A stretch of DNA of 64,000 nucleotides from Rhodobacter sp. NTK016B (GTDB lineage: Bacteria; Pseudomonadota; Alphaproteobacteria; Rhodobacterales; Rhodobacteraceae). Location: the NCBI RefSeq assembly GCF_017303295.1, contig NZ_JAFKOK010000004.1, positions 186,001 through 250,000 on the forward strand. The letters are read 5' to 3'. The notes under the pieces are model-generated. The model was not told the DNA's origin. It saw only the letters and a program-made list of their open reading frames with translations, and did not search any database. Of this stretch, positions 26,366-59,826 are shown one piece after another; position 1 is the first letter of the stretch; each line of letters starts with the position of its first letter. Both the position numbers and the translations under genes were made by a program.

Positions 26366-26447
26366 TGATCCACCTCCATACTCTGGCGACAGGGGGAGAC
26401 TGCGCCAGCTGCAATGGCTGCGCGGGCCAATAAGAAAAGGCAAGACA

Positions 26448-26681
26448 ATGGCCGTCGACAAACAAAATCTGCAGGATGCATTTCTGAACCACGTTCGCAA
26501 GAACAAGGTCCCCGTGACAATTTTCCTGATCAACGGGGTCAAATTGCTGGGCGTCATCACCTGGTTTGACAATTTCTGCGTGTTGCTGCGCCGGGAAGGG
26601 CAAAGCCAGCTCGTCTACAAGCATGCCATCTCGACCATCATGCCGGGTCAGCCGATTTCGCTGTATAACGGTGACGACTGA
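26448..26681 (+). CDS. hfq: RNA chaperone Hfq
   Basis: This 77-residue Sm-like protein forms hexamers and pairs small RNAs with mRNAs. The sequence shows the Sm1 region ([19 protein letters not shown]) and the Sm2 YKHAIST motif. The C-terminus is short, as in other alphaproteobacteria, with no long disordered tail. AAAAGG precedes the ATG. hflX follows 21 bp later, the classical hfq-hflX pair. Its presence supports small-RNA regulation in this organism, which is relevant to the candidate RNA at 29.35 kb. Confidence 0.97.
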
Positions 26682-28100: not shown

Positions 28101-29201
28101 TTACTCGTCATCGTCTTCCAGCAGTGTGATTTCCCCGATCTCGACCAGATTGCGCACCGCGGCCACGGCAGAGGCAAGGGCGGCTTCGGCCTCTTTCGCC
28201 TTGATGCGGCCGCGTGTTTCGACCTCGTCTCGCAGGGCGCCGGCCATACGCTGGGACATGTTGTTCAGAAGGAAGGTCGCGGCCTGACCGTCGGGGCTGT
28301 CGGGGGCCGGCAGGGTTGCCGCCAGCGCGGTGATCAGTTCCGCCTGCGGGATCTCGCGCAGCAGTTTCGGCACGTCGCGCGGGTTCACGCGTTCGGCGAT
28401 ATTGGCGAAGGTAAAGATCGCCTTGCGCACGCCCTCGGCGAAATCGGCGTCGTCCTCTTCCAGCCCGGTGAGCAGATCGTCGCGGACCTGTGACGAGGTA
28501 GAGTTCAGGATCGCACCAACCCGCGCGGCAGGGGCGGCGGGGAACGCGCGCGAGGGGCGGCCGTCGAGTTCGCGCGCGATCGACGTGCCGATCCGCGCCA
28601 CCATTTCGGGCGCGATTCCTTCGGTCAGCGACACGCCATACGCCACGCGCCGCGCCCGTTCCCCGGGCATCTTGCCCAGAATATCGGCCGCGCGGGCGAC
28701 CGGCAATTTCGATAGCACGACCGAGGCCACTTCGGCGCTTTCAGGTTCCAGCACACTCAACAGCGTTGGGGTATCGGCGCCGACGATCCGTTCCCACGGA
28801 TCTTCGCCCGCCAGCGCGCGCTGGCGCAGGCGCGAGCTGGCGCCGGGGCTGAGCTTGCCGTCGAGCGCTTTCAGCGCCCCGCCAAGATTGGACGGAAAGC
28901 TGAGCCCTACCTGTTCCATCGTCTCGACGAATTCAGCGATCACGGTGTTGAGCGTGTCGCGATCCACCAGCCGCATTTCGGCGATGGTTTCAGTCAGCGC
29001 CGTCTGCATGTCTTCGGGCAGCGCCGACAGCTTGATATCGGCCCCTTCCGCCACCAGTAGCCGGACGATGATCGCCGCTTTCTGACGACCCGTCAGTTTC
29101 TTGATCGTGCGACCCGACGCGGCATGCGCGTGCATCAGCGCCTCGGCGTCTGTGTCTGTGTCGAGCGACGGGAAAGAAAACTTGGCAAGGTCCTGTGACA
29201 T
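28101..29201 (-). CDS. fliG: FliG-type flagellar motor switch protein, isolated from other flagellar genes
   Basis: This 366-residue protein shows the FliG armadillo-like middle and C-terminal domains. LSVLEPESAEVASVVLSKLP and SLTEGIAPEMVARIG are from the middle domain. The C-terminal segment LTGLEEDDADFAEGVRKAIF to NNMSQRMAGALRDEVE matches the rotor domain with its charged residues. FliG couples stator torque to the flagellar rotor. No other flagellar gene lies in this window, so this is an orphan or second copy. The start at 29201 (MSQDLAKFSFPSL) is chosen over an upstream extension. An FNR-like box lies about 104 bp upstream. Confidence 0.85.
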   Translation of the reverse strand: MSQDLAKFSFPSLDTDTDAEALMHAHAASGRTIKKLTGRQKAAIIVRLLVAEGADIKLSALPEDMQTALTETIAEMRLVDRDTLNTVIAEFVETMEQVGLSFPSNLGGALKALDGKLSPGASSRLRQRALAGEDPWERIVGADTPTLLSVLEPESAEVASVVLSKLPVARAADILGKMPGERARRVAYGVSLTEGIAPEMVARIGTSIARELDGRPSRAFPAAPAARVGAILNSTSSQVRDDLLTGLEEDDADFAEGVRKAIFTFANIAERVNPRDVPKLLREIPQAELITALAATLPAPDSPDGQAATFLLNNMSQRMAGALRDEVETRGRIKAKEAEAALASAVAAVRNLVEIGEITLLEDDDE

Positions 29202-29304
29202 CGGCTCATCCGTTCTGGCTGAGCGCAGGATGCAGGAATGACGGTTAATCGACCGATAATTCCGAGCGGATTTTTTGCTGGTTTGGTAAGGGCGTTGCGC
29301 GGGC

Positions 29305-29318
29305 TTGATCCATGTCAA
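29305..29318 (+). promoter_or_regulatory. FNR/FnrL-like box in the fliG-ispG gap
   Basis: TTGAT-CCAT-GTCAA matches the FNR half-sites TTGAT-N4-ATCAA at nine of ten positions. It is flanked by C and G, so the dyad is CTTGAC/GTCAAG-like. The centre (29311.5) would be at -41.5 for a + strand start near 29353, the standard class II activating position. It could equally serve the divergent fliG gene. Confidence 0.6.
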
Positions 29319-29349
29319 GGTCGCGGCGCGTCGGGAGCATTAGACAGGA

Positions 29350-29457
29350 TGGCGAAGGGCAGGACATCGTCCGATCTTCATCTCCCGTTTCCGGGCGCAC
29401 CTTCCTGCGTCTGGTCGACTATGCCGCCGCGAGACCTCCCTCTCGCGGCGCTTTTTC
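29350..29457 (+). ncRNA. Candidate small RNA with FNR-like box and intrinsic terminator
   Basis: About 100 nt lie between an FNR-like box and a strong + strand terminator, with no + strand protein gene ending there. Three hairpins are seen: 29354-29379 (GAAG/CTTC outside, GGAC/GTCC inside), 29384-29395 (CCCG-TTTC-CGGG), and the terminator at 29425-29450 followed by CTTTTTCTT. The terminator loop is CCTCCC and the linker holds CATCTCCC; both are anti-Shine-Dalgarno-like seeds. hfq is encoded 2.7 kb away. The 5' end is a guess from the box position, and the strand follows the terminator polarity. No matching protein frame is closed within it. Confidence 0.5.
29425..29456 (+). terminator. Intrinsic terminator, + strand, with no coding gene in front
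   Basis: A perfect 10 bp stem (CGCCGCGAGA-type arm 29425-29434, TCTCGCGGCG 29441-29450) closes a CCTCCC loop and is followed by CTTTTT. On the - strand no U-run follows, so the polarity is +. The nearest upstream + strand gene, hflX, ends 1.3 kb earlier beyond the oppositely oriented fliG. A second 7 bp stem (GGGGCGC/GCGCCCC, 29464-29484) next to it may serve ispG on the - strand. Confidence 0.85.
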
Positions 29458-29499
29458 TTGTCCGGGGCGCCGCTAAAGCGCCCCGCCAGACTACTCGGC

Positions 29500-30627
29500 T
29501 CAGCCCGCCGCGACCGGCTCGGCCTCGGCTTCCAGCTCGGCTGCGCGCTTTTCGACGAGCTCGACGATATGGTCGATCATGCGGTCATTGGACATCTTGT
29601 GGTCCTGCTTGCCCGCCATGTAGATCATGCCCGAGCCCGCACCGCCGCCGGTGAAGCCGATATCTGTCATCAGCGCCTCGCCCGGGCCGTTCACCACGCA
29701 GCCGATGATCGACAGGCTCATCGGCGTCTTGATATGCGACAGCCGGTCTTCGAGGATCTCGACCGTCTTGATCACGTCAAAGCCCTGACGCGCGCAGGAC
29801 GGGCAGGAAATGATCTGCACGCCGCGTGTGCGCAGGCCCAGCGATTTCAGGATCTCGTAGCCGACCTTGACCTCTTCGACCGGGTCCGCCGACAGGCTCA
29901 CGCGGATCGTGTCGCCGATCCCGGCCCATAGCAGGTTGCCTAGCCCCACCGCCGATTTAACGGTCCCCGAAACGAAACCGCCCGCCTCGGTGATACCCAG
30001 ATGGATCGGCGCATCGGTGGCATCGGCCAGTTGCTGATAGGCGGCGGCGGCCAGGAACACATCCGAGGCTTTCACCGAAATTTTGAATTCGTGGAAGTCG
30101 TTATCTTGCAGGATCTTGATGTGATCGAGCCCGCTTTCGACCATCGCGTCGGGGCAGGGCTCGCCATATTTGTCGAGCAGGTGCTTTTCCAGCGAACCGG
30201 CATTCACGCCGATGCGGATCGAACAGCCGTGATCCTTGGCGGCGCGGATCACTTCCTTCACGCGCTTCTCGTCACCGATATTACCGGGATTGATCCGCAG
30301 GCAGGCGGCGCCCGCCTCGGCGGCTTCAATCGCGCGTTTGTAGTGGAAATGGATATCGGCCACGATCGGCACCGGGCTTTCGCGGCAGATCTCGCGCAGC
30401 GCCTGCGTGCTGGCCTGATCGGGGGTCGAGACACGGACGATATCGGCGCCGACATCGGCAGCTGCCAGCACCTGAGCCAGCGTGGCCTTGACGTCGGTGG
30501 TGTCGGTATTGGTCATCGTCTGCACCGAGATCGGTGCGTCGCCGCCCACGGGGACGGATCCCACCATGATCTTGCGCGAGGCGCGGCGCTCGATGTTGCG
30601 CCAGGGGCGGATCGGGTTCAGGGACAT
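29500..30627 (-). CDS. ispG: 4-hydroxy-3-methylbut-2-enyl diphosphate synthase IspG
   Basis: This is a 375-residue [4Fe-4S] enzyme of the MEP pathway that converts MEcPP (the IspF product) to HMBPP. IscG-type TIM-barrel text is clear: [16 protein letters not shown] and [13 protein letters not shown]. Cluster cysteines are in ISCPSCARQ and [11 protein letters not shown]. The length matches the family. The start at 30627 ([11 protein letters not shown]) is used, since upstream codons are not conserved in character. It follows the rodZ-like gene on the same strand, but a terminator separates them. Confidence 0.96.
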
Positions 30628-30708
30628 GGGGCCGGGCTCCTCGATCTGTGTCGATCCTGAGAAATGGGTCTGAGGGCTGAGATAAGGTCTGTGGCGGACG
30701 GCGGCAAT

Positions 30709-58116: not shown

Positions 58117-59826
<1,710 letters not shown>

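Follow-up and report, generated by a model that had tools for sequence, protein, structure and literature searches.

Gene organisation between the FliG-like gene and ispG

The gap between a FliG-like gene and ispG in the 64 kb stretch of DNA analysed here (the window) contains a + strand unit, at positions 29305-29457, which comprises a box, a -10-like element, a predicted start, two hairpins, a linker and a terminator. Both flanking genes are encoded on the - strand: the FliG-like gene (28104-29201) is divergent from the unit, and ispG (29500-30636; above the cut-offs of NF001540 and TIGR00612) is convergent with it and is its conserved neighbour. The FliG-like protein, encoded between hflX and ispG, scores 117.4 bits with TIGR00207, around half of the FliG equivalog cut-off (226.7 bits), and no fliG match adjoins ispG in 80 loci from other genera, within about 1.3 kb beyond ispG.

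The unit begins with the palindromic FNR-family box TTGATCCATGTCAA (29305-29318), whose centre lies at -41.5 from a predicted transcription start at 29353; this start was placed from the position of a GARG motif and corresponds to a class II FNR geometry. A sequence that may act as -10 element, TAGACA, is found at 29341-29346. The start is followed by hairpin 1 (GAAGG ... CTTC, 29354-29379), by the unpaired linker ATCTCCCGTTT (29380-29390), which contains CTCCCGTTT and is, on the grounds of its conservation, the likely anti-Shine-Dalgarno seed, and by hairpin 2 (29391-29414), the loop of which reads CCTTCC in the window copy according to the alignment. An intrinsic terminator with its T tract (29425-29458) closes the unit; it consists of a 10-pair stem (29425-29450) with a CCTCCC loop, and then CTTTTTCTT.

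The 105 nt between 29353 and 29457 fold with -45.8 kcal/mol (z -3.7), a value reached by none of 200 shuffled sequences. The terminator hairpin has the strongest energy among the 165 hairpins that precede T-runs on both strands of the window. Counted by themselves, terminator-like sites in 28500-30500 are at chance level (2, against 1.7 in shuffles). Because ispG and the FliG-like gene are both on the - strand, this + strand terminator serves neither of them. The initial annotation, made from the sequence alone, had described a strong terminator where no + strand gene ends, two further hairpins between start and terminator, and two CTCCC-type segments; the stem and its loop were confirmed, both hairpins appear in the fold of 29353-29457, and CTCCC occurs twice in the window copy. 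It had also placed hfq close to the RNA gene, and this gene, likely to encode the chaperone, is indeed located at 26442-26681 on the + strand (above the cut-offs of TIGR02383 and NF001602). It lies 2.6 kb from the unit, a nearness that is uninformative on Hfq binding.

The FNR box and promoter geometry

The sequence TTGATCCATGTCAA agrees with TTGAT-N4-ATCAA at 9 of 10 positions. The degenerate pattern TTGAY-N4-RTCAA occurs only once in the whole window, at 29305-29318, where 0.15 occurrences would be expected, and at least one occurrence was found in 14 of 100 shuffles of the window. A lone FNR box is weak evidence, and the case is carried by the comparison with relatives. Upstream of the RNA, all 15 loci collected from Pararhodobacter (see below) have a box that matches at 9 or 10 of the 10 positions, and the GARG at the RNA start is located 48-50 nt past the beginning of the box in each of them; at locus L007 the alignment takes a second GARG, which lies at 54 nt. 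Modest conservation of the -10-like element is seen at offsets 36 (T, 11/15), 37, 39 and 40 (A, 10/15 each) from the start of the box. A simple scan of 28500-30500 found no sigma-70-type consensus promoter. The 9/10 match and the activating distance from a start near 29353, as annotated at the outset, were upheld, with the spacing kept in 15 loci and the start itself predicted: the box centre is 41.5 nt before it, at the place looked for in an FNR-activated small RNA.

A box centred at -41.5 has been reported as near-optimal for Fnr-dependent promoters (PMC5398030). Five matches to Crp-type proteins were found in the same genome. One of these proteins carries an N-terminal cysteine cluster, CGSCPIRHRAVCARC, together with an ETVSR helix, which we take to be the arrangement of FnrL, and on this sequence evidence an FnrL-type protein is encoded in the genome. 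The reading of the box as an FNR site is strengthened because it sits at -41.5 and an FnrL-type protein is present in the same genome. Switch-on by FnrL is a prediction supported by the promoter geometry; other Crp/FNR-type proteins of the genome may use the same box.

Conservation in Pararhodobacter

BLAST searches with the gap in 18 genomes of Pararhodobacter (the genus of the window), followed by synteny with ispG, provided 15 loci, and from these a covariance model (R1) was built. Among the 18 genomes, 15 have the unit downstream of ispG, and none of the 12 with completeness of 90% or more and contamination of 5% or less lacks it. R1 recovers the 15 loci at E<=4.1e-15; recovery of its own training set is by construction, and independent evidence is given by synteny and by the shared promoter, which is outside the model. 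No convincing R1 match was obtained in three genomes: G006 (none), G015 (E 0.26) and G016 (E 0.0047). This absence is indistinguishable from assembly gaps because these genomes are 70-89% complete (85%, 89% and 70%, respectively). A partial match in G006 (L019), considered as a copy at a contig edge, was dropped because the sequence around it is different and has no ispG.

Box, start spacing and terminator are kept together in all 15 loci. Mean pairwise identity is highest in the linker (0.88), followed by the terminator (0.76), hairpin 2 (0.60), hairpin 1 (0.57) and the spacer (0.30), and CTCCCGTT of the linker is invariant in 15/15 sequences. The loops of hairpin 2 and of the terminator vary among the loci, the former being CCTCCC in 7 of the 15. 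The most conserved part of the RNA is the unpaired linker AUCUCCCGUUU, which from its sequence would be suited to pairing with Shine-Dalgarno regions.

Evidence for the fold comes from covariation. The structure-fitted alignment (A2) of the 15 loci, which by its construction leans toward the model structure, has two-sided changes in 12 of 27 pairs, and 93.8% of its 388 cells are paired; when the partner is slid, only 39-42% are paired, and on each of the five measures used all 500 shuffles fell short. These changes are distributed over the upper helix of hairpin 1 (4/5 pairs; none of four in its lower helix), hairpin 2 (5/9) and the terminator (3/9). RNAalifold on an unfitted MAFFT alignment also gave two-sided changes in 10 of 23 pairs. 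The initial annotation had proposed to look in related genomes for conserved covariation together with box and terminator, and had counted a lack of conserved stem pairing as evidence against the RNA; pairing is kept with covariation, and the three features were found together in the 15 loci. No reading frame or start codon common to the 15 RNAs was found. Fold, covariation, terminator and the lack of a shared frame point to a free-standing, structured unit that is predicted to be non-coding and to have its own terminator.

Proposed function and candidate targets

Box, spacing, conserved covarying fold, terminator and FnrL-type gene are seen in the sequence, and taken together they make it very probable that the unit specifies, as a free-standing gene, a non-coding RNA of about 105 nt, activated by FnrL at low oxygen, whose CUCCC linker would lower translation at Shine-Dalgarno regions, probably with Hfq. 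When oxygen falls, FnrL would bind the box at -41.5 and activate transcription from around 29353, with the intrinsic terminator marking the end of the RNA. Purine-rich Shine-Dalgarno regions could then pair with the unpaired CUCCC-GUUU linker, perhaps also with the CUCCC-type hairpin loops, and this pairing would lower translation of the target mRNAs, probably with the help of Hfq. Transcription, oxygen control, the use of Hfq and target repression are predictions from sequence; repression by pairing is suggested by conservation and by analogy.

Related to the targets, the linker complement GGAAACGGGAG was searched at 3-12 nt from an ATG, which gave 10 matches in 7 of the 18 Pararhodobacter genomes and one control match (G015); some excess is expected, as GGGAG is itself a common Shine-Dalgarno string. 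Three of the ten matches belong to one MBL-fold metallo-hydrolase, whose closest NCBIfam models are SoxH-related and below cut-off; one other gene is matched on two contigs of one genome, and the rest are unrelated. A survey of this hydrolase covered 20 copies in 15 genomes, besides a contig-edge copy of G002. A complement of 9-13 nt overlaps its ribosome-binding site in six genomes (G000, G001, G002, G004, G005 and G013), and other copies have 4-7 nt. Duplex energies, calculated for 19 copies, gave z from -3.1 to -4.1 in five of them (G000a, G001b, G002, G004 and G013) and from -2.1 to +1.0 in the remaining 14 (G005, -1.4). The metallo-hydrolase mRNA is thus a candidate target in six genomes, as far as complementarity indicates; the match may be due to chance or be lineage-bound, since it is missing in other genomes that have the gene. 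A pattern for the complement of the core hit no site other than the RNA genes, which it recovered in 11 of the 18 genomes; the control gave one match. The genome of the window encodes an identical hydrolase protein at two places with different upstream regions (L262 and L277, on G000:C8 and G000:C22); only one of them has the RNA complement and is divergent from a MarR-like gene, as read from the sequence.

Alternative explanations

The palindromic form of the box, 104 nt upstream of the start of the FliG-like gene, would be compatible with a site that serves this divergent - strand gene, the hairpins being incidental. However, the box keeps an almost constant spacing from the RNA and a variable one from the FliG-like gene: among the 12 loci with a fliG match the box is 85-316 nt from the aligned fliG start. 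The five loci whose alignment begins at residue 1 have 85-137 nt, and distances of up to 316 nt come from seven where the first 23-29 residues are unaligned, so that the range is partly uncertain. Besides, locus L014 keeps box and RNA without a fliG match in the 1.6 kb beyond ispG, and the RNA itself covaries. Exclusive service to the FliG-like gene is therefore very improbable; a double role of the box, for the RNA and for the FliG-like gene, is possible. It is extremely improbable that the RNA serves as a short mRNA coding for a small protein: although a mechanical 138-codon frame overlaps the region, it starts at 29238, upstream of the FNR box, and the 15 RNAs have neither a start nor a frame in common.

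Membership among the CCUCCUCCC RNAs of the CcsR (cuckoo) family would account for the CUCCC loops and for a weak match to CcsR1 (19.3 bits, E 0.018 in a search of 321 bases), but this score is below the gathering score of CcsR1 (RF02791; 65.3 bits). For CcsR RNAs, the 3' end of a DUF1127 gene is described as the source from which they are processed (PMC10253847, PMC8307010), whereas the unit has a predicted FNR-type promoter of its own, and its neighbours are the FliG-like gene and ispG, both on the other strand; such membership is quite improbable. More room has to be left for an RNA whose CUCCC motifs titrate another RNA or a protein, without pairing to mRNAs, as CUCCC recurs in the loops of the window RNA and of RNAs from other genera. 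Nevertheless, the most conserved part is the linker, whose conservation goes beyond CUCCC, while the loops of hairpin 2 and of the terminator vary, and one ribosome-binding site has a complement of 9-13 nt in six genomes, so that titration is unlikely. The FnrL-activated RNA that pairs with Shine-Dalgarno regions is the reading retained here.

Comparison with known small RNAs

No Rfam family matches the RNA at its cut-off. Eleven sub-threshold matches were obtained for 29200-29520 up to E 10, CcsR1 being the best of them, and FnrS was found neither at cut-off nor among the matches of this region up to E 10. Within the window, the gathering score is reached only by an unrelated 5'ureB small RNA, which is matched in full length at 59386-59673 on the + strand (95.3 bits). 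The initial annotation, which had suggested the comparison with Rfam, knew of no description of this RNA; this agrees with the lack of a gathering match in the region and with a literature search, judged by titles and abstract starts, in which no paper on the locus was found.

FnrS from enterobacteria is an FNR-activated, Hfq-bound small RNA with a free-standing gene and an intrinsic terminator. Direct control by FNR and repression have been reported for it (PMC4263372). The window RNA resembles FnrS in the FNR-type box at activating distance, the free-standing gene, the intrinsic terminator and a likely role as low-oxygen repressor of mRNAs. On the other hand, its putative seed is CUCCC-GUUU, and strong matches are restricted to Pararhodobacter among the family genomes searched. 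The analogy with FnrS drawn by the initial annotation consequently holds for regulation and mode of action, as predicted here, and fails for sequence, FnrS being absent from the Rfam matches. With the CcsR1-4 or cuckoo RNAs of Rhodobacter and other Alphaproteobacteria, the RNA shares CUCCC-type motifs in hairpins (motif according to the Rfam title), and it differs from them in its own FNR-type promoter, in a locus without DUF1127 partner gene and in a score below the Rfam cut-off.

PcrZ from Rhodobacter sphaeroides has been described as a low-oxygen small RNA that requires PrrA and FnrL, with a PrrA site and a perhaps indirect control by FnrL (PMC8139620), and its length is given as 136 nt (PMC6238624). 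Compared by description only, the window RNA would be, like PcrZ, a low-oxygen small RNA of the relatives of Rhodobacter; the length of PcrZ, its PrrA site and the perhaps indirect role of FnrL set the two apart, also by description only. Two further RNAs of R. sphaeroides, RSs2461 and RSs0019 (Pos19), have FnrL ChIP peaks at the putative promoter region (PMC4263372), a position comparable, by description only, with the FnrL-type site predicted here; Pos19 is reported to be a 219 nt RNA of the RpoE regulon (PMC5036791). FNR-activated small RNAs (FnrS) and small RNAs with CUCCC loops (CcsR) are already known; the family described here was found neither in Rfam nor in the papers retrieved. The proposal of a new, uncatalogued family of FNR-activated small RNAs is largely supported by the sequence comparisons, its absence from print being judged by Rfam and by titles and abstract starts.

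Distribution beyond the genus

From 189 genomes of other genera with an ispG match, 80 ispG loci were examined, and the RNA core was found in none of them within about 1.3 kb beyond ispG, with an expression that also misses one of the 15 Pararhodobacter loci (L011). Boxes within 600 nt amounted to one of 9/10, 559 nt away, and eight of 8/10 in the same 80 loci. R1 matched 51 of 394 family genomes at E<=0.01, strongly only in two Pararhodobacter (strict filters); the best match outside the genus has an E value of 1.2e-5. Inspection of 28 loci, taken from the 49 other-genus genomes that match R1 at E<=0.01, revealed a box upstream in 7 and downstream in 2.

A pattern made of box, gap and CTCCC-GTTTY was found in 5 of 388 family genomes, with no control matches. 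These genomes are the two Pararhodobacter, G073 and G398, whose matches look like chance, and G146, in which (L224, 1484-1551, - strand) a similar but shorter RNA of about 68 nt has an FNR-type box, the linker CUCAACUCCCUGUUUCUGG and a terminator with CUCCC loop. The gene downstream of this short RNA is presumably xthA-like, as read from its sequence. The box-plus-core pattern hit 49 stretches in a named genome collection, 12 of them from Pararhodobacter or its MAGs (including P. zhoushanensis); the remaining 37, from unrelated organisms, were taken for chance. Neither RNA had a match in a plasmid collection.

A wider class of CUCCC RNAs in Rhodobacteraceae

Some of the weak R1 matches are RNAs in which an FNR-type box accompanies several CUCCC motifs. 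A search for a box combined with two CTCCC gave matches in 9 of 197 genomes and none in the control; four of the nine (G153, G118, G072 and G195) were judged by eye to be chance. A second model (R2), for which six such RNAs were used and promoter columns left out, gave 24 matches in 23 of the 394 genomes at E<=0.001, six of them being the training loci. TTGAY-N4-RTCAA lies within about 170 nt upstream in 13 of the 18 non-training matches, where around 0.07 would be expected; this expectation (0.0037 per locus) is rough, as it derives from a background of 47,880 bases with a single box. The box is 47-49 nt upstream in seven of the 13, and a box downstream was seen in 2 of the 18. For five of the 13 the box was already known before R2, namely for G041 and G121 (box-containing pattern), G337 and G379 (R1) and the window's own, and the other eight are new. 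The five matches without box include a DUF1127-CcsR-like locus (L294). The genome of the window has a single R2 match at E<=0.001, at the RNA in question (E 1.2e-4). No Rfam gathering matches were obtained in two sets of further class loci, of 13 and 15.

We are inclined, with some reserve, to see in these sequences an undescribed class of Rhodobacteraceae RNAs: free-standing, around 70-130 nt long, in many cases with an FNR/Dnr-type box at -41.5, in most with 2-4 CUCCC anti-Shine-Dalgarno motifs, at loci that differ by genus, which together would constitute a common layer of translational repression at low oxygen. The proposed loci are the ispG gap (Pararhodobacter), the coxE-xdhC-like gap, a position beside a glycosyltransferase-like gene (in some) and one upstream of an xthA-like gene. 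The shared part is mainly a CUCCC hairpin plus terminator, from which common descent of the class does not follow; convergence on one design and common descent are equally possible. The combination of box and CUCCC, recurring in many genera, could be a variant beyond the known kinds.

If this holds, FNR-driven anti-Shine-Dalgarno RNAs would be a fast repressing arm of low-oxygen circuits, comparable to FnrS. For R. sphaeroides, 13 FnrL-bound places that are not upstream of an annotated gene have been reported, and small RNAs are located at two of these (PMC4263372), and orphan FnrL sites would gain a testable meaning. The class can be searched for with the covariance models and with the box-plus-motif pattern.

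Several of the individual loci deserve description. Loci L282-L291, from ten other genera of Rhodobacteraceae, contain RNAs of 120-127 nt with 3-4 CTCCC motifs near locus position 1501; a TTGAY-N4-RTCAA box precedes the RNA start by 47-48 nt, and six of these RNAs are the training set of R2. L192/L294 (around 1501-1610) encodes a DUF1127-like small protein, as read from the sequence, followed by three CCUCCC hairpins; it resembles the CcsR (CIN1) locus and is below the Rfam cut-off. At L191, L194 and L200, an FNR-type box and hairpins with CUCCC loops adjoin a VWA/CoxE-like gene, and at L194 and L200 an XdhC-like gene is located on the other side, both genes being named from their translations.
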